A stretch of DNA of 64,000 bases, from contig NZ_CP031320.1 in NCBI RefSeq assembly GCF_003355155.1, forward strand, positions 7,146,570 to 7,210,569. The letters are read 5' to 3'. Source of the DNA: Streptomyces armeniacus (GTDB lineage: Bacteria; Actinomycetota; Actinomycetes; Streptomycetales; Streptomycetaceae). The notes beneath the pieces are model-generated. The model was not told the origin of the DNA. It worked only from the letters and a program-made list of their open reading frames with translations, and searched no databases. Shown here one piece after another: positions 14,682-27,606 of the stretch; within the stretch, counting starts at the first letter, position 1; each line of letters starts with the position of its first letter. The position numbers were made by a program, and so were the translations under genes.

Positions 14682-17109
<2,428 letters not shown>

Positions 17110-18396
17110 ACCTCCGCCGCGCAGCAGCCTCATCGTCCGGTAGAGGATGACGCCCCGCAGCAGGCCGCCGACTGGGGAGCGTCCGTGACCGACCCGGGTG
17201 GAGCTCAGGATCCAGAACGGGATCCTGACCAGGATGTACATGAGCGCCAGCGCCAGGATGAGGTTCACCAGTCCGTCGGAACTCGTCGCGAACCAGGAGG
17301 TGTTGTCCGGGTCGAGCAGGACCCGGACGCCGACGACCAGCGCCAGGGACTGGCCGATCTGAATGGCGAGCACGCCGCCGAAGGTGCGCCACCACCAGCG
17401 GGCGACGCCGTCGGTCTGCGGCAGGGCGTGGCACATCAGGGCAAGGGGTGCCCCGACGATCAGGATGACGGTGAGAGCGACCCGTACGACGTATGTGACC
17501 AGCAAAGCGACGATCGATCCGGCCAGGACGATGCCCAGGATGATCAGGAAGATGCTGCCGCTCTCGTCCAGCGGGTTCAGGATGAAGTCGCGCAGCGCCT
17601 CACCCGCGGTGCCCTCGTCGACGCCGTCGCCCATGACCGCGTGGGAGAGCGCGTTGGCGAGGCTGACCGCCTTCCCTGCCAGGAGCAGGGAGAGAGCGGA
17701 GGCGAGGAAGCCGAGCGGGATGCGGGGGGCGATCTCTTTTACGGAGTGCCGCCGTTGGATGCTCTCGTGGCTCATCAGGACCAGGCCCGCGATCATGATC
17801 AGGATCGAGTAGCTGGCGACGACGATGTGCCAGGAGTTGGTCCACAGCTCGCCGATCCGCGGCAGCTGCTGGGGGGTCGGGGTGGTCAGCAGCGTGTTGC
17901 CCAGCAGATCCAGCAGCGGGTTGAGGGCGGCCATGACGATGCCCTTGAAAAAGGCGGTGATGGCGCCGTTGATGGCGTCCTCGATCCGGCCGGTGACGCC
18001 GCCGCCCCCGTCGTCGAGATGATCTTCCAGCTTGGGCGGGTCCCCGGACGGTGCGGGTGAGGACGGGGCATCGGATTCCGGATTGCAGTCGGAGCCGCTG
18101 CAAGGGGACGGCGTGGGCTCGGGCTGCGTGGGGCTGGGTGCGGGCGCGGTCGGCGCCGGTGGAGCTTCCGGAGGGTCCGGAGCGGGCTCCGCACGGGCGG
18201 AGACCACGCCCGCTGTCAGGACGAGCACCACCACGGCGCACAGCACCCAGCCCAGCCGGTGCCAACGCACAGGTCGCCGGTGTGCCGGCCCGCGCGGTGG
18301 AGCGGAGGACGGTCGGTGCCGGGGGCGGGCCCCGGCCCGGCTGGAGGCGTCCGGGCCGGGGCGGTCACAGGAGGGCAAGCGCGGGGCGGGTGCCAT
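17110..18396 (-). CDS. TrbL/VirB6-like conjugative channel membrane protein, 3' end unresolved
   Basis: The first 425 residues are reliable. A signal or anchor helix (LGWVLCAVVVLVLTAGVVSA) precedes a Pro-rich periplasmic stretch with a Cys pair, then DRIEDAINGAITAFFKGI-like amphipathic sequence and about six transmembrane helices (IVVASYSILIMIAGLVLM, IPLGFLASALSLLLAG, IFLIILGIVLAGSIVALLV, VALTVILIVGAPLALMCHAL, IQIGQSLALVVGVRVLL, LVNLILALALMYILVRIPF). This pattern, with the conserved DGVARWWWRTFGGVL, matches the TrbL-like subunit of actinobacterial type IV secretion loci. The frame then enters the G-rich junction at about 17.1 kb, so the real stop is unknown. Starts inside the pilin stop (TGATG overlap). 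Confidence 0.78.
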
Positions 18397-18827
18397 CAGT
18401 TGGCCCCCACGATGCCCTTGAGGATCCCCACCACCAGCGGGGCGAGCGCGGCCAGCCCGTAGCCGAACCCGGCCGAACGGAACGCGGTCTTGGCCTTCTC
18501 GACCTCACCGGGGTCGCCCGCGGCCAGGAGGTAGCGCACGCCGCCGACGGTCAGCATCACCGTCGCCAGCCCCGCCAGGATCCCCATGATCCACTTGCGG
18601 ATGTTGTTCAGGACCGTGTCGACGTCCTTGGCCAACGCCAGCACCTGCCCCGGGTCCGCGTGCGCCGCCGGCGCGACCAGCACCGGTACCAGCACAGCCA
18701 CGGTCACCAGGAACAGGCACCGGCCCGGCCAGCGGCGGCATCGCCGTACGGCCGGAGGCCAGTGCCCGCTCGTCGTAGTGCTGTGCTTCGAGCGGCAGAC
18801 GCCGGGAAGGGGTGGGGTCAGGCGCAT
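18396..18827 (-). CDS. VirB2/TrbC-like conjugative pilin
   Basis: A 143-residue protein. The ATG at 18827 has GGAGGT at good spacing; the longer frame to 18881 is not needed. A basic leader with a helix (CLFLVTVAVLVPVLVAPAAHA) gives a signal peptide. Mature helices are WIMGILAGLATVMLTVGGVRYLL and GYGLAALAPLVVGILKGIVG, separated by the loop AAGDPGEVEKAKTAFRSA, which is the family pattern. It would form the mating pilus or channel. It overlaps the upstream gene by 10 bp and the TrbL-like gene by 1 bp of shared stop/start, so the three are coupled. Confidence 0.82.
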   Translation of the reverse strand: MRLTPPLPGVCRSKHSTTTSGHWPPAVRRCRRWPGRCLFLVTVAVLVPVLVAPAAHADPGQVLALAKDVDTVLNNIRKWIMGILAGLATVMLTVGGVRYLLAAGDPGEVEKAKTAFRSAGFGYGLAALAPLVVGILKGIVGAN

Positions 18828-19804
18828 CGGGGCACCTCCGAAGACGACGGGTCCAGTGCGGGCGGTGGAGACCCCCCGCACCTCAAAAGGCCGGATTTCG
18901 AGCCCGTTTTGGACACGCGGACCGAAGGTTTTTCCGCCGTGTCTCCCCGACCGCCCCCGCCCACGGCGGTGACTGAGCGTGAAGGGGCTGGAGTCTGAGG
19001 GCTGGCGTCGGGTGAGGAGTTGACGGTCACGCTGTAGGCGACCGGGTCGCCGGGGTCGGTGTCACGGACCCGCTCACGCACGAAGTCGATCAGTCGGTGC
19101 TCGGCCCGCTTGCGGGCCTTGTAGGCGGCCTCGGCCGACATCTGGTGCGCGGCGGCCCAGTCGGCGAGGGAGTCCTCGTCCAGACGAGTCGACCCGATCA
19201 GGTCGGCCTCGGTCCGGGTCAGGACCCCCAGACGGACCGCGCGGGCCAGGACGAGGTCGGGGTGACCCCACGGCGGTTTCGGCGGGGTGGAGCGGAAGCT
19301 GTCGGGAGCGATCGGGGGTGGGGCGTCCAGTGCCTCGGCCAGCGCCGCGCCCCCGGACCGGTAGGCCGCCCACCGCAGCCGAACCAGCACCCGCGGGCGC
19401 CGCAGATCGATGTCGGCCAGCGCCGTGAGGAAGCCGGAGAGCACCTCGGCATGCGCATCGAAGGCGTCGCCGGGATACCGGGCGGCCAGGCGACGGGCGA
19501 TGCCGGCCAGGGCGGGCAGCGCCATCCCGGTGCACGCCAGCGTCCACGTGGCGCCCTCAGTCCGCGAGCGCTGCACCAGGTGGGCCCAGACCGCGTCACG
19601 CGTATGACGCGGGAAGCGGCGCCGCAGCATCCGGTCCCGCAACTCATCCAGCGGCACTGGGCGGTTGGGTAGCCCGGAGAAAGCCCGGCCATCAACGGAC
19701 AACGGCTCCGGGCCGGTCACCAGATAGGTGAAGCACTGCCGGGCGGTATCCAACGGCAACAACACTCGGCTGCCGGGGTAACTGGCGTGGTCGCGGCCAG
19801 ACAT
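18818..19804 (-). CDS. ICE protein with sigma-70-like/helix-turn-helix layout, unknown function
   Basis: A 328-residue protein. AAGGAG-N4 precedes the ATG (MSGRDHASYPGSRVLLPLDT). The middle resembles sigma region 2 (VLSGFLTALADIDLRRPRVLVRLRWAAYRSG), and 215-270 resembles region 4 (DLVLARAVRLGVLTRTEADLIGSTRLDEDSLADWAAAHQMSAEAAYKARKRAEHRLIDFV), a helix-turn-helix with the second helix SAEAAYKARKRAE. Such proteins are common beside Streptomyces conjugation genes and usually called hypothetical. The last 50 residues run through the repeated 43-nt element and are probably not conserved. Possible transcription factor for the transfer operon (inference). Confidence 0.72.
   Translation of the reverse strand: MSGRDHASYPGSRVLLPLDTARQCFTYLVTGPEPLSVDGRAFSGLPNRPVPLDELRDRMLRRRFPRHTRDAVWAHLVQRSRTEGATWTLACTGMALPALAGIARRLAARYPGDAFDAHAEVLSGFLTALADIDLRRPRVLVRLRWAAYRSGGAALAEALDAPPPIAPDSFRSTPPKPPWGHPDLVLARAVRLGVLTRTEADLIGSTRLDEDSLADWAAAHQMSAEAAYKARKRAEHRLIDFVRERVRDTDPGDPVAYSVTVNSSPDASPQTPAPSRSVTAVGGGGRGDTAEKPSVRVSKTGSKSGLLRCGGSPPPALDPSSSEVPRCA
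18881..18923 (-). promoter_or_regulatory. Structured 43-nt element, copy upstream of the pilin
   Basis: On the minus strand this element matches the copy at 20317-20359 in 35 of 43 positions without gaps. It ends 53 nt before the pilin ATG. The conserved core CGTGTCCAAAACGG is followed by a hairpin, CTCGAAA/TTTTGAG with loop TCCGGCC. Most differences from the other copy fall in the stem, yet pairing is kept. Could be an RNA leader, operator or transfer site; see findings. Confidence 0.65.
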
Positions 19805-20391
19805 GGTGACTCCTTCACTCGGTGAGGAAAAGCGGAGCCTCAAGGAAGGCAGGCCACCGACAAGAAACCGCCAAGAAATCAACAAGGTGAACTTCTTGGC
19901 GTGCCGCGGCAGTTACTAAGGAACGCTTAAATCCGCATTGTTGCCGCGGGTGTGGCGGCCCTGGGACGCGGAGCACACACGGCCACCAGGCAGGTGCCTT
20001 AATTGCTTCTGACCTGCGTCTTTAGGGGTGCTGTAGGCAGTTCTTAAGCGGGCTGTAGGCGATCCTTAGCAGTCCGCTGACAGCGGCACGGTCACACGGG
20101 GAACGTATCGGCCGCACATGCACACCGGGAGAGAAGAAAAGGCATCAAGGAATTCTCGGAGTACACCGCTGCGAGGGCACACGGAAAGCAACCGTCGTGG
20201 ACAGATCCGGAAGGTGTGAGGTGTTCCCGCCGGGGCTTCCGGAAGGTCTGCCGATGTGAAGCCCCAGCTCAGTTCCCCTCGACGCCGCGCCCGCAGCAGT
20301 GCCGGGAAGAAGTCGGGGTCGGCGTGTCCAAAACGGCCCCAGAATCCGGTCTTTTCTGGTGTCCGGGCACCACGGCACCAGAGAGGTTCAC
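19805..20391. other. Divergent ICE control region with direct repeats
   Basis: This 587-bp gap separates the minus-strand transfer genes from the plus-strand methyltransferase operon and is the most AT-rich stretch of the element. Repeats GCTGTAGGCAGTTCTTAAGC (20030-20049) and GCTGTAGGCGATCCTTAGC (20052-20070) are 22 nt apart, about two helical turns; CTTAA/TTAAG words also occur at 19925-19930, 19998-20003 and 20043-20047. These look like iterons or regulator sites. Nothing protein-coding is convincing. Confidence 0.6.
20317..20359 (+). promoter_or_regulatory. Structured 43-nt element, copy upstream of the methyltransferase operon
   Basis: Same element as at 18881-18923. Here the hairpin is CCAGAA/TTCTGG with loop TCCGGTCTT, preceded by CGTGTCCAAAACGG. 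It ends 32 nt before the ATG at 20392. Orientation relative to the downstream gene is the same in both copies. Confidence 0.65.
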
Positions 20392-21327
20392 ATGATCCAC
20401 AAACCGGCGGACAGCGCAGGCGGCACACCACAGTTCCCGGGCCCGCCCGATACCGGAGGCAGTACCAGCGGCGCGCGGAACACCAACACCGCGTGCGGGC
20501 GCCGCGGCTCGGTGTGGCCCGCCGCGCCGGAAGCAGACCACCCGGAGGCGGAGACGCTTCCCGGATGGCTGCTGGGCGCCATCGTCAAAATCGTCGCCCT
20601 CTACACGCAGCCAGGGCAGCGGGTCCTGCTGCTCGCCCCGCCCCACGGGGGCGCGAGGGGCACCACCGAGCGGGAGTTCGCCTCCTGCTGCGCCGAGTCG
20701 GGGTCTGGTCTGCTGACCGGACTGACCGAGGCGGCGCAGTCGGCCGCCAGCCTTGGCCGCACCCTCCATGTGCGGGCCGCCCACCCCGCCGGAGCAACAC
20801 TCGGCGCCGGGACCGACGTACCGAAGGGGCCGCAGTCCGTCCCCCGACTCGCACCGACCCCGGCCTACCCGACACCGACTCCCACCGACCCGCCACACCC
20901 GACCGGGCCGACGGGCGCCGCCGGACCGGGTCCGGACCGGTTCGACGCAGTGATCACCTTCGTCTCCCCGCGCGCCACCGACTGGGTGGCCACCACTGCA
21001 TGGAGCGCCCTGCTGTCCCCGTCCGGAACCCTCTCCTTCATCACACACAGTGACCGAGAGCAGGGGCGGCTGATCGACCCCAGCGGCGTCCTGACCGACA
21101 CCGCCCACCGTGCGGGGCTCAGCGTCCTGGATCGCGTGGTCCTCCTGGAGGTCCCCATCCGCCGCAGCGCCCTGGCCACTTCGGATCTTCCGGCGGCGGC
21201 AGGTTCGCCGCCCGCGCAGGCGGATACCGCTGGGCCGCCCCACACCCGCATTCACCACGACCTGCTGCTGTTCACCCGCAGCACGCGCGAGGCCACCGTC
21301 ACCACGCCCGAGGAGGAAGGCCGTTGA
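20392..21327 (+). CDS. Degenerate SAM-methyltransferase-like protein, first gene of ICE methyltransferase operon
   Basis: A 311-residue protein with ATG after GAGAGGTT. The block LPGWLLGAIVKIVALYTQPGQRVLLLAPPHGG aligns with the motif X and motif I part of the next gene (AIAAHAITAYTRPGHRVLDPACGAG), but the SAM-binding DPACGAG has become LAPPHGG. Near residue 185-225, FDAVITFVSPRATDW and SALLSPSGTLSFITH correspond to strands 4-5 with no catalytic (D/N/S)PP(Y/F/W). It therefore looks like a methyltransferase fold without catalysis. Residues 140-185 are a Pro/Thr linker. Its stop overlaps the next TTG start. Role unknown: accessory subunit or regulator are options. Confidence 0.7.
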   Translation: MIHKPADSAGGTPQFPGPPDTGGSTSGARNTNTACGRRGSVWPAAPEADHPEAETLPGWLLGAIVKIVALYTQPGQRVLLLAPPHGGARGTTEREFASCCAESGSGLLTGLTEAAQSAASLGRTLHVRAAHPAGATLGAGTDVPKGPQSVPRLAPTPAYPTPTPTDPPHPTGPTGAAGPGPDRFDAVITFVSPRATDWVATTAWSALLSPSGTLSFITHSDREQGRLIDPSGVLTDTAHRAGLSVLDRVVLLEVPIRRSALATSDLPAAAGSPPAQADTAGPPHTRIHHDLLLFTRSTREATVTTPEEEGR

Positions 21328-22208
21328 CGTCCCGACACCCGTCCCCGCCGGTCTCGGTCTGGGTCACCGGACAACACGAGGGCCGCACCCAGCTCGCCCA
21401 GGGCCCCTACGTCGCGGAGACCGTACGCGATGGCGCACGGATTCCACCGGCCATCGCCGCCCACGCCATCACCGCATACACCCGCCCCGGCCACAGGGTG
21501 CTCGATCCCGCGTGCGGGGCTGGCACCGTCCTGGTCGAAGCCCTGCGGGCGGGGCGCGACGCCATCGGCCTCACCCGGCACCGGTGGTGGCCCATCGCCC
21601 GCGCCAACGTCACCGCCGCCAAACGCCACGACGCCGCACCGGACGGCATGGTCCTCGACACCCCGACCGACGCCGCCGTAGGGCAACTCACCGGCTACCT
21701 CGGCCACATCGACCTGATCCTCACCACCTGGCCCCGCCCCCATCCGTACGCCGCCGCCCAAGATCGCGCCGAGGCGCGCGCCCCGCGCGCGGCCACCGAA
21801 CCTCTGCGTGCCCTGCTGGACCCCTACCGGGAGCTGCTGCGCCCCGGCGGTCACGTCGTTCTCGTCGTTCCGCGTCGTAGCCGGGGACGGCTGCTCGCTC
21901 CGCCGGGAGACCTCGCGGCCAGCGGGCGCGCAGCCGGCCTGGTACCGGTGGAGCGGTGCGTCGCTCTGACCGCGGAACTGCGCGGCTCCCGGCTGGTGGT
22001 GCGCTCCTCGCTGGCCCAGCGCCGCGCCGCCGCACGCCACGAGCGCGCCACGAGGCAGCCGGTCATGCTCCCCGCGCACCACGAAGTACTCGTCTTCCAG
22101 GCCCCGCCACCAGCTGCCGTAGCAGCGGCCGTGCGCCGCCCGGCCACCGGCGCCAGCCTGTCCGATCACCGTGCCCGCGCTGAGCTCCTCAGCGGGAGGG
22201 CAGCATGA
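21324..22208 (+). CDS. DNA methyltransferase-like protein with altered motif IV
   Basis: A 294-residue protein. It starts from TTG inside the previous stop (TTGA). Motif I is intact (GHRVLDPACGAGTVLVEAL, about residues 56-74) with the follow-on GRDAIGLTRHRWWPIARANV. Motif IV should read as in SPPY or NPPY but is LILTTWPRPHPY, so the catalytic loop is changed. The later LRPGGHVVLVVPRRSRGRLL is the usual beta-6/7 pair. It probably binds SAM; DNA methylation is doubtful. Fold type differs from the two downstream enzymes. Overlaps the next gene by 4 bp (ATGA). Confidence 0.75.
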   Translation: MTSRHPSPPVSVWVTGQHEGRTQLAQGPYVAETVRDGARIPPAIAAHAITAYTRPGHRVLDPACGAGTVLVEALRAGRDAIGLTRHRWWPIARANVTAAKRHDAAPDGMVLDTPTDAAVGQLTGYLGHIDLILTTWPRPHPYAAAQDRAEARAPRAATEPLRALLDPYRELLRPGGHVVLVVPRRSRGRLLAPPGDLAASGRAAGLVPVERCVALTAELRGSRLVVRSSLAQRRAAARHERATRQPVMLPAHHEVLVFQAPPPAAVAAAVRRPATGASLSDHRARAELLSGRAA

Positions 22209-23464
22209 GGCGCCGTCCGTACTCCGCCCACCCCGGCGTCACCCTCTACACCGGCGACGCGATCGAGATGCTGCGCGAACTCCCCGAGAACGGCGCCGAT
22301 TGCGTGGTCACCTCGCCCCCGTACTGGGGCCTGCGCGACTACGGCACCGGCACCTGGACCGGCGGCGACTCCGCCTGCGCCCACTCCACCGGACGCGGCA
22401 CCAACACCACGCAGACCAAGCACCCCAACGCCCCCTATCCGGCCTCGGCCGCGCACCGCGGCGACCATCCCCGCACCTGCCTGCGCTGCGGCGCGGTCCG
22501 CGAAGACCGGCAATACGGCCTGGAGCCAACACCGGAGGAGTACATCGACAGGCTGCGGCAGGTGTTCGCCGAACTGCGCCGCGTACTGAGCGCCACCGGC
22601 ACGGTGTGGCTCAACCTCGGCGACTCCTACAGCGCCACACCACCCGGCCGCACCGAGAACCCGATGGGCAAGAGCACCCTGAACAGCCCGATGGACGGCG
22701 GGCTGCTGCGCGAGTCCGTCCGCAGCGCCGGGGTCGACCGCACCCGCACGCTTCCCCGGAAGAACCTCCTGGGCATGCCCTGGAGAACGGTGTTCGCCCT
22801 GCAGGCGGACGGCTGGATCCTGCGCAACGCCATCGTCTGGCACAAGCCCAACGCCATGCCCGAATCTGTCCAGGACCGGCTCTCCAACCGGTACGAGATG
22901 CTGTTTCTGCTGGTGCAGCAGCAGCGCTACTACTTCGACCTGGACGCCATCCGTGAACCCCTGGCCCGCCCGGAAGCCCTGACCGAGGGCATGGTGATCG
23001 GCGGGGCGAACAAAGGCCGCCACGGAGGTATCGACGCCACCTCCCGCCGCCGGGGCAACAGCCGCTACGGCCAAGGCAAGTACACCGACACCGACACCGC
23101 CGCCTTCCCCGCACGCCCGCCCGGAGCCGCCATGCGACCCACCGGACGGCAGCACAACAGCGCCCACCCGCGCGGCAAGAACCCCGGCGACGTCTGGTCG
23201 ATCGCCACCCGGCCGCTGCGGGCCGCGCACTTCGCCGCCTTCCCCCTCGACCTGCCACTGCGCTGCATCGCCGCCGGATGCCCACCGGCCGGCACCGTCC
23301 TGGACCCCTTCAGCGGCGCAGCCACCACCGGCCTTGCCGCACAGCAACTGGAGCGGCCCTACCTCGGCATCGACGTGAACCCCGCCTTCCACGACATCGC
23401 CCTGGACCGCCTCGGACTCCCACAACCCGACACCCCCGACTCCCCGCACCGGCAGGCGGCATGA
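22205..23464 (+). CDS. Beta-class DNA methyltransferase with zinc-finger insert (copy 1)
   Basis: A 419-residue enzyme. Motif IV comes first (CVVTSPPYWGLRDYGTG, about 38-54); target recognition follows, and motif I is at the C-terminus (GTVLDPFSGAATTGLAAQQ), the beta-class order. The SPPY form is typical of N4-cytosine enzymes, though N6-adenine is possible. Just after motif IV lies an insert with C-x-H and C-x2-C (SACAHS, TCLRCGAVR), a probable zinc finger also seen in phage-encoded methylases. Conserved blocks KNLLGMPWRTVFALQ, GWILRNAIVWHKPN and NPGDVWSI are shared with the next gene. No restriction endonuclease is nearby, so it is an orphan enzyme. Confidence 0.9.
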   Translation: MRRRPYSAHPGVTLYTGDAIEMLRELPENGADCVVTSPPYWGLRDYGTGTWTGGDSACAHSTGRGTNTTQTKHPNAPYPASAAHRGDHPRTCLRCGAVREDRQYGLEPTPEEYIDRLRQVFAELRRVLSATGTVWLNLGDSYSATPPGRTENPMGKSTLNSPMDGGLLRESVRSAGVDRTRTLPRKNLLGMPWRTVFALQADGWILRNAIVWHKPNAMPESVQDRLSNRYEMLFLLVQQQRYYFDLDAIREPLARPEALTEGMVIGGANKGRHGGIDATSRRRGNSRYGQGKYTDTDTAAFPARPPGAAMRPTGRQHNSAHPRGKNPGDVWSIATRPLRAAHFAAFPLDLPLRCIAAGCPPAGTVLDPFSGAATTGLAAQQLERPYLGIDVNPAFHDIALDRLGLPQPDTPDSPHRQAA

Positions 23465-24603
23465 ACACCCGACAACCCTCCCCGAAAGGACGCGACCTCG
23501 GCACGGCACACCGCGGCGCGGCACCTCCCGCGGCTCACCCGTGCGACGGTGTCACGCTGTTGACCGGCGACGCCGTCGAAATCCTCGCGACCCTGCCGAC
23601 CGCCTCGGCGGACTGCGTCGTCACCTCCCCGCCCTACTGGCGGCTGCGGGACTACGACACCGGCACCTGGAGCGGCGGCGGCAACCCGCACTGCCCGCAT
23701 CCCGCAACCGAAGACGAGCCCCCGGACAGGGTGAACACCACCCAGCAGTGCTCGCGTTGCGGCGCACGGTGGACCGATCGCCAGTACGGCCAGGAACCTT
23801 CTCCCGACGCCTACGTCGACCACCTGCGGCAGGTGTTCGCCGAACTCGCGCGCGTGCTGACCGATACTGGCACTGCGTGGCTCAACCTGGGCGACAGCTA
23901 CGCCGCCAACAGCGACGGCTACCACTGCACACGCCCCGGCCAATATCGCCAGCCCCGCTTCCGGCCCGCCTCCGGCCTGCCGCACAAGAATCTCCTCGGC
24001 ATGCCCTGGAGAACGGTCTTCGCCATGCAGAACGACGGCTGGATCCTGCGCAACGCCATCATCTGGCACAAGCCCAACGCCGCACCCTTCCCCACCACCG
24101 ACCGGCTCACGTGCCGCTACGAACTGCTGTTTCTCCTGGTGAAACAGCCCCACTACTACTTCAACCTCGACCCGATCCGGCAGCCCTACACCGGTGACCG
24201 CTCTCTGGCCCGCCGTGCGCACCGTTCCGGCAACAAACTGAACACCGCCCGCGGCACCTGGCCCCAGCCCTGTGACACCGCCCGCGGCGCGACGCCCCGC
24301 GGGCGCAACCCCGGAGACCTCTGGAGCATCCCGGTCACCCCCCAGCGCCGAGCTCCGCACCCCGCCGCCTTCCCTCTCGACCTGCCGCTGCGCTGCATCG
24401 CCGCCGGGTGCCCACCGGCCGGTACCGTTCTGGACCCCTTCAGCGGCACCGGCACCACCGCCCTGGCCGCCCGCCAACTCGGCCGCACCTACATCGGAAT
24501 CGACCTCAACCTCACCTACCAGCACCTCGCCGATCAGCAGTTGGCACGCCAACGCCGAGTGAAAGCCGACGAGGACAGCAGCCTGAGGCAGGAGGGGATA
24601 TGA
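23461..24603 (+). CDS. Beta-class DNA methyltransferase with zinc-finger insert (copy 2)
   Basis: A 380-residue paralogue of the previous gene starting in its stop codon (ATGA). Motif IV CVVTSPPYWRLRDYDTG, insert CPH plus CSRCGARW, blocks KNLLGMPWRTVFAMQ and GWILRNAIIWHKPN, and motif I GTVLDPFSGTGTTALAARQ are all intact. The target-recognition section between about 240 and 310 is shorter and differs from copy 1, so the two probably modify different sequences. The nucleotide stretch encoding LDLPLRCIAAGCPPAGTVLD is nearly identical in both, pointing to tandem duplication or gene conversion. Confidence 0.9.
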   Translation: MNTRQPSPKGRDLGTAHRGAAPPAAHPCDGVTLLTGDAVEILATLPTASADCVVTSPPYWRLRDYDTGTWSGGGNPHCPHPATEDEPPDRVNTTQQCSRCGARWTDRQYGQEPSPDAYVDHLRQVFAELARVLTDTGTAWLNLGDSYAANSDGYHCTRPGQYRQPRFRPASGLPHKNLLGMPWRTVFAMQNDGWILRNAIIWHKPNAAPFPTTDRLTCRYELLFLLVKQPHYYFNLDPIRQPYTGDRSLARRAHRSGNKLNTARGTWPQPCDTARGATPRGRNPGDLWSIPVTPQRRAPHPAAFPLDLPLRCIAAGCPPAGTVLDPFSGTGTTALAARQLGRTYIGIDLNLTYQHLADQQLARQRRVKADEDSSLRQEGI

Positions 24604-25178
24604 ACAACAAGAGTTCCTCGCTCACCCGGCCGAAAGAGCCGACACCACCACGCCGCCCTCGTCAGAACGCCACGGCAGTCCCGCAGGGCTTGATGGTGGT
24701 GCCGGTCACCTTCCGGCTGGCATGCGCGATCATCGCCGAGCATCACCGGCACCACCAGCCACCGCAGGGAATGAAGTTCGCTCTCGGCGTGGCCGCACAC
24801 CAGGCCCTCGTCGGGGTCGCCGTGGTCGGACGACCCGTCGCACGGCATCTCGATGACGGCCGCACCGCGGAGGTGTCCCGCACCTGCACCGATGGGACGC
24901 TCAACGCAAACTCCACCCTGTACGCAGCCGCTTGGCGAACAGCCCGCGCCATGGGATACCACCGGCTGCTCACCTACACCGAGCACGGCGAACACGGCGC
25001 CAGCCTGCGCGCCGCAGGCTGGCGCCCCATCACCACGAGTGCGGCACACCACGGGTGGGACCGGCCCAGCCGCCGCAGACCATCACAGGCCCGCCCCGTT
25101 CGCCGCACCCGGTGGGAGATCGCTCGCACCCCAGGCGGCGCGCACCCTCTGCCGCGCGCCTGCGACCACCGAGCCTGA
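24600..25178 (+). CDS. XF1762-like protein (GNAT-like), last gene of the methyltransferase operon
   Basis: A 192-residue protein with GGAGGGG before an ATG that overlaps the previous stop. The section VVPVTFRLACAIIAEHHRHHQPPQGMKFALGVA to VVGRPVARHLDDGRTAEVSRTCTDGTLNANSTLYAAAWRTARAMGYHRLLTYT is characteristic of the XF1762 group seen in phages and mobile elements, and the end LLTYTEHGEHGASLRAAGWRP has the strand-helix of an acetyltransferase fold. It may add or remove an acyl group on a base or protein, but substrate is unknown. Found repeatedly next to DNA methylases on mobile elements (from memory). Confidence 0.75.
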   Translation: MNNKSSSLTRPKEPTPPRRPRQNATAVPQGLMVVPVTFRLACAIIAEHHRHHQPPQGMKFALGVAAHQALVGVAVVGRPVARHLDDGRTAEVSRTCTDGTLNANSTLYAAAWRTARAMGYHRLLTYTEHGEHGASLRAAGWRPITTSAAHHGWDRPSRRRPSQARPVRRTRWEIARTPGGAHPLPRACDHRA

Positions 25179-25507: not shown

Positions 25508-25813
25508 ATGATGGGGAACGACACCCCCAACCGCTCGCTCTCATCTGTATCGTCGGCGTCTTCGGCGGTGCGGAGCATGACGGTCCAGGAACTGCTCGAG
25601 CTGCCCGTGAGCTTCCCGCTCGACACAGCGAATAGGGCGCTCGCGCTCCGCCGTTCCACCGGATACGCCCTCGCCCGGCGCGGTGAGTATCCAGTACGGG
25701 TGCTACGCGTCGGCAGCACGTACCGGGTGAGCCGCAGCGAACTCCTGAGCTACCTCGGCATCGACCCCGGAACACAGTCTTCGTCCCCCGGGCCCGCCAC
25801 TCGCGCCGCCTGA
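25508..25813 (+). CDS. xis: Excisionase-type helix-turn-helix protein
   Basis: A 101-residue protein with tandem ATG codons at 25508 and 25511; AAGGAG at 25499-25504 favours the second. The core is a MerR/excisionase winged helix: LLELPVSFPLDTANRALALRRSTGYALARRGEYPVRVLRVGSTYRVSRSELLSYLGI, in which the first helices select DNA and GSTYRVSRSEL is the wing. It should bend att DNA and direct the integrase to excision. The integrase follows 70 bp downstream in the same direction, the standard ICE arrangement. Confidence 0.85.
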   Translation: MMGNDTPNRSLSSVSSASSAVRSMTVQELLELPVSFPLDTANRALALRRSTGYALARRGEYPVRVLRVGSTYRVSRSELLSYLGIDPGTQSSSPGPATRAA

Positions 25814-25883: not shown

Positions 25884-27587
25884 ATGAAGGGCTCGACCTA
25901 CCGGCGGTGCCACTGCCGGGACCCGGAAACGGGAAAGCCCTGGGGAGCCAGGTGCCCGAAGCGGCGGCAACGCAAGCACGGCACGTACTCGATACGCCAG
26001 GAACTCCCTGCTCGCGAGGACGGCACCCGCCGCTCCTTCACGCGTGGCGGATACGACACCGCGACCAAGGCTCAGGCCGATCTGGACCACGTGCGCAGTC
26101 TGCTCGCGCTCCCGGAGGAGGATGGCGGCGAAGGACTCTGCAAGATCGGGGATCTGCTGGAGAAGACCGCAGAAGAGAAGGCGCCCCTCCCCGACATCGA
26201 CGTGACGCGCCGTCGACTCATCGCGGGCCAGTCCTTCACGTCCCGGGTGACCGTGGGCGAGTGGCTGGATACCTGGCTCGCATCGAAGAAGAAGATCCGC
26301 AGGACGACGCGGAACGGCTACGCGTCGCATATCCGCGTCCACCTCAAACCGAACCTGGGTACCATCCGGCTGGACCGGCTCAGCCTTCGCCAGCTGATCC
26401 AGATGTTCGACGCCATCGCGGACGAGAACGAGGTGATCGCGGCAGAGAATCAAGCACGCCGGGAACAGACCGCACGCGCCACCTGGGGAAAACGAAGCAG
26501 GCCACCGGAGGAGGAGCGGGCGCGGCTGGACAAGGAGCGCGCCGAGCTCGCCGAGATGAAGCCGTTCCGGAAGCCCACCGGCCCGGCCACCTGTCACGGA
26601 ATCCGGCGCACGCTGCGGGCCGCGCTGAACGCGGCTATCACCCAGCAGCTGATCACCTTCAACCCGGCCGCACACGTCGAGCTGGCTTCCGGGCAGCGGC
26701 CCAAGCCGGTGCTGTGGACCGATGCGCGGGTGAAGCGGTGGCGCGAGACCGGGGAGATCCCCTCGGGGGTGATGGTGTGGACCCCGCAGCAGTTCGGTAC
26801 CTTCCTCGACGAGGCCGAAGGCGACCGCCTGTACTCGCTGTTCCACCTGATCGGTTTCCGGGGCCTGCGGCGCGGCGAGGCGGTCGGGCAGGAGTGGACC
26901 GACCTCGACCTCGATGCCGCTCTACTCACCCCGGCGAAGACGATCGTGGTCGACCAGTGGGAACCGTACGAGTCGGAGCCGAAGACGGACGGCAGCGCGG
27001 CTACCATCGGGCTCGACAGCCTCACCGTCGCCGTGCTGCGCGCACACCGCGAGCGGCAGAACCAGGAGCGGCTGCAGTGGGGAGACGCGTGGCAGGACAC
27101 CGGGAAGGTGTTCACCCGGGAGGACGGGAGCTGGCTGCACCCGGAGATAGTTTCCGACGCTTTCCGCCGCATCCTCGCCCGCACCGACCTTCCACCGATC
27201 AGCCTGCGGGACCTGCGGCACGTCTCCGCGACTCTCCAGCACGCCGGAGGAGGCGATCTGCACACGATCAAGGAGGTGCTGCGGCACTCCACGATCACGC
27301 TGACCTCTGACACCTACACCAGTCTGCTGCCCGAGGTCGACCACGAGGTCGCCGAGAAGGCCGCCCGCCTCGTGCCCCGGGCACGGCGCGCAGCAGCCGA
27401 TCGCACATCCGCTCCCGCCTCGCTCCCGCCAGCAGCTGACAAGGCGCGGGCAACGGCTCCGCCACGGGCGATGAAGCCAGGACACAAGGCCGAAAATACA
27501 GGTCAGAGCGCTTCCTCGGCGGAGGCTCAGGGTGGGGCGGGTGGGACTCGAACCCACGGCCGACGGATTATGAGTCCGCTGCTCTAA
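25884..27587 (+). CDS. int: Tyrosine recombinase (ICE integrase), 3' end inside a tRNA gene
   Basis: A 567-residue integrase with GAGGAGGAAG before the ATG. A Cys-rich N-terminus (YRRCHCRDPETGKPWGARCPKR) binds arm sites; core-binding SAM-like domain at about 130-260 (VTVGEWLDTWLASKKKIRRTT) contains an extra charged insert (EENQARREQTARATWGKR region). The catalytic domain holds the first Arg in FRGLRRGEAVG, then SLRDLRHVSATL and LRHSTITLTSDTYTSLL with the Tyr nucleophile. The first His of the HxxR box is Arg, a known variant. The last 17 residues (GTRTHGRRIMSPLL) are translated tRNA sequence, so attachment occurs at the tRNA 3' part. Confidence 0.93.
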   Translation: MKGSTYRRCHCRDPETGKPWGARCPKRRQRKHGTYSIRQELPAREDGTRRSFTRGGYDTATKAQADLDHVRSLLALPEEDGGEGLCKIGDLLEKTAEEKAPLPDIDVTRRRLIAGQSFTSRVTVGEWLDTWLASKKKIRRTTRNGYASHIRVHLKPNLGTIRLDRLSLRQLIQMFDAIADENEVIAAENQARREQTARATWGKRSRPPEEERARLDKERAELAEMKPFRKPTGPATCHGIRRTLRAALNAAITQQLITFNPAAHVELASGQRPKPVLWTDARVKRWRETGEIPSGVMVWTPQQFGTFLDEAEGDRLYSLFHLIGFRGLRRGEAVGQEWTDLDLDAALLTPAKTIVVDQWEPYESEPKTDGSAATIGLDSLTVAVLRAHRERQNQERLQWGDAWQDTGKVFTREDGSWLHPEIVSDAFRRILARTDLPPISLRDLRHVSATLQHAGGGDLHTIKEVLRHSTITLTSDTYTSLLPEVDHEVAEKAARLVPRARRAAADRTSAPASLPPAADKARATAPPRAMKPGHKAENTGQSASSAEAQGGAGGTRTHGRRIMSPLL

Positions 27588-27606
27588 CCGGCTGAGCTAC
27601 CGCCCC
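27533..27606 (-). tRNA. tRNA with CAT anticodon (elongator Met or Ile2), ICE attachment site
   Basis: Acceptor GGGGCGG (27606-27600) pairs with CCGCCCC (27540-27534), with discriminator A. The anticodon loop CTCATAA gives CAT. A paired G1-C72 end excludes initiator tRNA; elongator Met and lysidine-modified Ile2 cannot be told apart by eye. The integrase stop lies 55 nt inside the gene from its 3' side, so the att core is within the 3' half. The matching second att copy is not found in this window. Confidence 0.93.

Follow-up and report, generated by a model that had tools for sequence, protein, structure and literature searches.

In a 64,000-nucleotide stretch of the Streptomyces armeniacus genome (contig NZ_CP031320.1, positions 7,146,570 to 7,210,569; hereafter the window, numbered from its first letter), five genes, G1 to G5, form an operon within an integrative and conjugative element (ICE) of the type IV secretion system (T4SS) type. 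This five-gene set probably marks the element's own DNA chemically, and a DNA signal common to both suggests that it is switched on together with the transfer machinery. Our preferred reading, to which we give a probability of about 0.55, is that the operon is a transfer-coupled DNA-modification cassette in which G1 and G2 are a non-catalytic binding or regulatory pair. The reading builds on direct observations, namely the gene families, the conserved pair and its layout, the graded loss of its motifs, purifying selection and the conservation of the common box. Each component has known relatives, and the whole is a variant arrangement that is real and conserved. An earlier interpretation of this DNA from its letters (the sequence-only reading) had described five genes with 4-bp overlaps, and all five open reading frames (ORFs) indeed lie on the forward strand with a 4-bp overlap at each of the four junctions. 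Its general picture also held: the ICE combines intact with degenerate methyltransferases, and no nuclease was detected.

G3 and G4 matched PF01555 (5.5e-43 and 2.9e-49, respectively), and in both of them SPPY precedes DPFSG, the order of beta-class N4C/N6A methyltransferases. They were 50% identical and differed in their middle regions, in agreement with their description as intact paralogues with different recognition regions; of the zinc-finger insert claimed for them, a Cys-containing insert was present in both, its zinc binding being putative. G5, previously called XF1762-like, exceeded both curated profile cut-offs (196.5 bits for NF045478 XF1762, cut-off 50; 29.8 bits for PF25680 Mom, cut-off 27.1) and matched phrog_1384, 'Mom-like DNA modification protein' (9e-38), which refined its assignment to the Mom family. 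Mom of phage Mu carries out an adenine hypermodification in DNA. G5 resembles Mu Mom and XF1762 in these profile scores, and differs in belonging to an ICE operon with two methyltransferases and a degenerate pair; its chemistry is predicted. In a tblastn search of 50,697 phage records, G5-like sequences appeared in 25 and G2-like sequences in none. Since G5 is a Mom-family protein, the operon holds three likely DNA modifiers (G3 to G5) and no detected nuclease: as previously stated, no restriction enzyme or cognate nuclease was detected in the five operon proteins (Pfam, NCBIfam, PADLOC, PHROGs) or in 10 flanking proteins of the window (Pfam). The cognate nuclease that defines a restriction-modification system was thus not detected.

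The first two genes presented a different picture. G2 matched PF01555 only around motif I, and G1 had no match in Pfam, NCBIfam, PADLOC or PHROGs at E-values up to 0.1. G2 retained motif I and had lost SPPY, whereas G1 had lost both, as the sequence-only reading had noticed. The losses were family-wide: [SND]PP[YFW] occurred in 0 of 119 G2 homologues (the best 119 of 380), and among 30 G1 homologues the motif I pattern was found in one and the motif IV pattern ([SND]PP[YFW]) in one. Sequencing errors, named earlier as a possible refutation, were therefore ruled out. Neither protein has the features of an active amino-methyltransferase, as G2 lacks the catalytic motif and G1 both motif I and motif IV. 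Motif I comes before motif IV in G1 and G2, whereas the order is the reverse in G3 and G4, and for this reason an origin of G1 and G2 as decayed copies of G3 and G4 was rejected. Judged by its motifs, the pair represents a methyltransferase lineage of its own, which resides in the backbone of a T4SS ICE of actinobacteria.

Residue changes in G2 followed a regular pattern. In 150 degenerate G2 sequences, taken from partly overlapping sets (119 proteins, 30 loci and the window), the Asp and Gly of motif I were kept in all 150, the motif II acid (Glu in 17 of 18 active sequences) had become Thr in 135, and the second Pro of SPPY had become Arg in 143; G2 of the window has Pro at that column and the Arg shifted one place on. 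On this pattern, the degeneration of G2 is not random. The ratio of nonsynonymous to synonymous substitution rates (dN/dS), calculated for 15 pairs per gene from six Pseudonocardiaceae loci, with a few gene starts placed off by some codons, was 0.23-0.38 for G2 (<0.4 in 15/15) and 0.18-0.69 for G1, and no internal stop occurred in the 12 genes of this set. By these values the degenerate pair is under purifying selection. Profiles of G1 and G2 aligned over the C-terminal half of G2 (hhalign probability 96.6%, E 6e-10). Structure models were made of single chains; that of G2 (AlphaFold, predicted local distance difference test, pLDDT, 79.7) matched methyltransferases in Foldseek with a best E of 3.7e-9 and template modelling (TM) scores of 0.36-0.49 by query length, whereas the G1 model was of low confidence (pLDDT 68.4), so that its fold matches are weak support.

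For comparison we laid out 34 records in which G2 lacks SPPY (L003-L030, L032, L033, L073, L075, L076 and the window), having dropped L077 (same contig as L003), L031 (SPPY), L034 (no clean call), and L035 and L036 (weak matches outside actinobacteria); L012, L013 and L015 are near-identical, hence not independent. G1 was found on the same strand, ≤1.2 kb upstream of G2, in 32 of the 34 records, the exceptions being L024, with G1 at -4.1 kb, and L032, where it was missing (a fragment with a stop). The pair was present in both Streptomyces and Pseudonocardiaceae records. Within 9 kb downstream, G3/G4-like genes occurred in 13/34 records, G5-like genes in 5/34 and either in 16/34; 21 records carried G1 and G2 with no G3/G4-like gene in that distance, some contigs being short. 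The exact five-gene order was found in no other record, L075 having the same order with two extra genes between G3 and G4. Of the co-occurrence that the sequence-only reading had proposed to check, conservation thus extended to the G1-G2 pair and not to the complete order. Separately, the gene after G2 in L020 (10888-11682) encodes a Pfam Recombinase domain, and similar-looking genes occur in L005 and L025 (Pseudonocardiaceae ICEs).

Less degenerate forms of the pair were found in other genomes. A scan of 295 genomes of the genus gave matches in 121 at E ≤ 0.001; when strong matches were counted and short weak ones left out, SPPY was absent in 5 genomes and present in 17, with one broken fragment (G284). 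The S. armeniacus genome itself carries both kinds of G2, with and without SPPY. In 17 Streptomyces genomes the second subunit had SPPY and its upstream partner neither motif. A phylum scan (396 genomes, E up to 1e-20) matched five genomes besides S. armeniacus, all with SPPY. In G457 the pair is adjacent, both genes are intact, and they diverge from the genes for U18 (the conserved neighbour of G1), the pilin and the TrbL-like protein; in G335 both intact genes are split over two contigs, the upstream one ~10 kb from U18; the upstream copy was in pieces in G603 and weakly similar in G491, and the downstream gene alone was seen in G565. Relatives therefore form a graded series, from both subunits intact, through the second intact alone, to neither intact (the window). 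The best match of G1 was the intact upstream gene (7e-8; next 3e-5) and that of G2 the downstream gene (5e-33). In a tree that left out 17 duplicate or fragmentary loci, a 100/100 branch separated 39 rows without SPPY from 17 with it; because the tree was rooted at its midpoint, the direction of change is deduced from the logic of the motifs. These results do not agree with the paired active/inactive set of the sequence-only reading: G1 and G2 belong to another lineage with its own ancestral intact pair, and in most records (21/34, some contigs being short) they occupy the same position in the ICE with no G3/G4-like gene within 9 kb.

Six SPPY-type Streptomyces ICE loci, including the second copy in S. 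armeniacus, had the divergent U18 in 6/6 and pilin plus TrbL-like genes in 5/6. That second copy (L067, 6.185-6.204 Mb) is a sister-type T4SS ICE carrying a half-intact methyltransferase pair. G3/G4-like genes accompanied 13/34 SPPY-less records vs. 0/6 SPPY-type loci, numbers too small to claim a link between SPPY loss and G3/G4 gain.

A box of ~36 bp, unmentioned in the sequence-only reading, precedes both the pilin gene and G1. The box lies within the longest of the element's inverted pairs (45 nt, 82%; 18879-18923 with 20317-20361) and, read toward the gene, its pilin-side copy consists of GTGTCCAAAACGG, 7 bp and ATCCGG, with small changes in the G1-side copy. A two-copy pattern built from these same two sites and allowing ≤3 mismatches gave two sites in the 8.08-Mb genome, both of them these, and a reversed-pattern control gave none. 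With a matrix made from 15 sites of 13 records (threshold 13, chosen after seeing scores; 40 shuffles of one 20-kb locus reached at most 8.6), both copies were above threshold in 25/34 records and at least one in 28/34. In the 21 records outside matrix training, both copies were found in 12 and at least one in 15; L013, L015 and L022, which nearly duplicate training records, are among the 12. L016 has a third copy, located 67 bp upstream of an ORF of 79 codons whose stop shares 4 bp with the start of a Mom-like gene. No box was found in the six SPPY-type ICE loci by matrix, and inverted repeats of four such loci held no convincing equivalent. The pilin-side box falls in the C-terminal tail of U18, and the sister-type U18 of L067, L068 and L090 lacks this tail. 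The simplest reading of the arrangement is that the box is a promoter or operator common to the transfer and G1 operons and, in L016, also to the Mom operon. The 79-codon ORF of L016 (18058-18297), between the third box and the Mom-like gene, has a position that we take to resemble that of Com of Mu.

From these data we infer the function of the box, the timing and chemistry of modification, its anti-restriction effect and the role of G1 and G2 as follows. The box before the pilin gene and before G1 would place transfer machinery and modification genes under one control, so that production of the modifiers would coincide with the element's preparation for transfer. As a box common to both sets of genes would give a coupling to exit, G3 and G4 (orphan m4C/m6A methyltransferases) and G5 (Mom-type) would mark element DNA for transfer, and the marked transferred strand would resist restriction in the recipient. 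Anti-restriction during transfer, one function suggested earlier, gains weight from the Mom-family gene and the box common with the transfer operon. G1 and G2 would be what is left of an ancestral tandem of active methyltransferases, with catalysis lost stepwise and the pair retained as a non-catalytic unit; this unit would most likely bind DNA or an S-adenosylmethionine (SAM)-like ligand and serve as a regulator or accessory of transfer. A more specific proposal, which we hold only tentatively, is that this former methyltransferase pair is a transfer regulator of the ICE family that binds the common box, or senses SAM, S-adenosylhomocysteine or another ligand through motif I and the new Arg, coordinating the T4SS with swappable modifiers including Mom. 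According to the parts of a review available to us (PMC12707154), mobile elements express their orphan modifiers only when leaving the cell, and Mom is silent in lysogens. The present operon is like those modifiers in its mobile element, its lack of a detected nuclease and the joint control suggested by the box; it differs in combining three modifiers with a conserved non-catalytic pair in an actinobacterial T4SS ICE, and is known from sequence.

Several observations weigh against this interpretation. No G3/G4/G5-like gene was present within 9 kb in 18/34 records, so the box and the G1-G2 pair cannot exist for modification alone. The box was below threshold in 6/34 records (L011, L024, L027, L030, L032, L073), and its 13-base core alone, with 2 mismatches, gave no significant signal in the window (3 matches, a count reached or exceeded in 8/100 shuffles); the box could act as an operator instead of a promoter, and for its binder there is a candidate only, U18, whose sigma-like reading was sub-threshold and failed by hhalign. 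G1 evolves faster (dN/dS up to 0.69), and its descent from the upstream gene depends on its position and on a narrow E-value margin (7e-8 vs. 3e-5). Because the top Foldseek matches of the G2 model were PrmA and Trm11, the ancestral pair may have acted on RNA. Finally, the element is split in this genome, so the copy here may not transfer by itself.

The alternative that survives best, though we consider it unlikely, is an epigenetic switch, in which G3 and G4 (ancestrally G1 and G2) methylate sites in the divergent U18/G1 control region and so determine whether the transfer genes are on, protection from restriction being secondary. The pair sits at this region in intact, half-intact and degenerate forms, and viral orphan methyltransferases may regulate viral cycles, as stated in the available parts of the same review (PMC12707154). 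However, in this lineage catalytic motifs are missing from the near-constant pair, G3/G4, which have them, are optional (13/34 records), and it is not obvious what a Mom-family gene would do in a switch.

Slightly less probable again is that G1 and G2 serve the intact methyltransferases as allosteric or targeting subunits. METTL3-METTL14 is such an active/inactive methyltransferase heterodimer, and the likeness lies in paired relatives of which one or both lack catalytic motifs; here both are degenerate, a fully intact pair exists in relatives, and a G1-G2 complex is putative. Overlapping genes of one operon, degenerate yet conserved, would suit subunits, whereas the 21/34 records with the pair and no G3/G4-like gene within 9 kb, and the unlike motif order, argue against them. 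We regard as improbable that G1 and G2 are decaying ICE passengers without function: stepwise motif loss and the upper dN/dS of G1 would be expected of decay, but the adjacent pair is retained in Streptomyces and Pseudonocardiaceae, internal stops are absent in the 12 genes, G2 stays below 0.4 in every one of the 15 pairs and has gained new near-invariant residues. A defence module with an accessory complex, also proposed earlier, is very improbable, as its one indication is a weak G2 match to MADS mad2 (1.7e-10, 147 residues, among the best 25 PADLOC matches per protein, which were otherwise generic methyltransferase models) that covers one methyltransferase region, with no mad gene in four other window proteins scanned, where MADS has several together, and neither a nuclease nor another effector detected among the operon proteins and scanned flanking proteins.

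Features of the element are collected in Table 1. U18 was divergent in 30/34 records, the others being L021 (which begins ~0.5 kb before G1), L027, L032 and L073, and it is a candidate regulator by position. Its identification as a sigma factor was rejected, as matches to extracytoplasmic function (ECF) sigma factors were sub-threshold and limited to 2/4 members (two relatives), and hhalign against the one sigma factor of the window was negative. Inversion of the U18 segment through flanking boxes was likewise discarded, since U18 orientation was constant in the 30 records that contain it and the third box of L016 does not flank it.

Table 1. Genes and sites of the element in the window.
Feature	Position	Strand	Remarks
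TrbL-like membrane protein	17122..18396	-	Without own Pfam match; similarity to relatives stops ~17122
T4SS pilin	18396..18827	-	PF18895
U18, conserved protein divergent from G1	18818..19885	-	Without family match; true start may be nearer 19807
Box copy 1	18882..18917	-	Inside 3' end of U18 ORF; starts 90 bp before pilin ATG at 18827
Box copy 2	20323..20358	+	Starts 69 bp before G1 ATG
G1, degenerate methyltransferase-like protein	20392..21327	+	Motifs I and IV lost; 30 homologues
G2, methyltransferase-fold protein	21324..22208	+	TTG start; motif I present, without SPPY and motif II acid
G3, beta-class N4C/N6A DNA methyltransferase, intact motifs	22205..23464	+	PF01555; Cys-containing insert
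G4, second intact beta-class DNA methyltransferase	23461..24603	+	PF01555; 50% identity with G3
G5, Mom-family (XF1762) DNA-modification protein	24600..25178	+	PF25680, NF045478, phrog_1384
Excisionase-like HTH protein	25508..25813	+	Sub-cut-off HTH_17; precedes int in relatives
Tyrosine integrase	25884..27587	+	PF00589, PF14659; 3' end overlaps tRNA
tRNA (CAT anticodon), probable attachment site	27531..27606	-	46-bp identical copy elsewhere in genome

An integrase and T4SS genes beside a probable attachment site identify the element as a T4SS-type ICE. The L012 counterpart of the TrbL-like gene had a sub-cut-off TrbL_4 match. T4SS queries found the TrbL-like and pilin genes alone in the window and none in the 20 kb to its left. 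At 6.26-6.27 Mb, ~0.9 Mb away, a related T4SS set includes a PrgI protein and a VirB4-type protein (P-loop_TraG, AAA_10) 76% identical to that of L012. The transfer set is thus incomplete in this element, VirB4-type and PrgI genes being outside the window; no search for relaxase or coupling protein was made. The break beside the TrbL-like gene coincides with a G/C-rich repeat at ~16758-17117 (window 14682-18396), and reflects either rearrangement or misassembly; the repeat also forms the start of an NB-ARC/TPR gene. The 46-bp identical copy of the 3' part of the tRNA lies at 5162629-5162674 (-) (L112), ~2 Mb away in opposite orientation, and is possibly a displaced attL or a scar.

Seventeen putative T4SS-type ICEs of actinobacteria have been reported (PMC3218068). 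The present element shares with them the integrase and T4SS pilin and, in its relatives, TrbL-like and VirB4-type genes; the available parts of that report make no mention of the methyltransferase pair or the common box. Among the papers listed by a search of ICE, T4SS and Mom-related literature none described the pair, which is no proof that it is undescribed; it was not described in the accessible parts of PMC9513070 and PMC5512222, and Mom terms were absent from the main text of PMC8670742.

The operon offers a concrete case in which a link between modification genes and conjugation, made by a common DNA element, can be tested. Together with its relatives it also forms, at one genomic position, a natural series in which two intact methyltransferases grade into an inactive pair that is conserved, so that the manner of, and reasons for, the persistence of pseudo-methyltransferases can be tested directly in bacteria.

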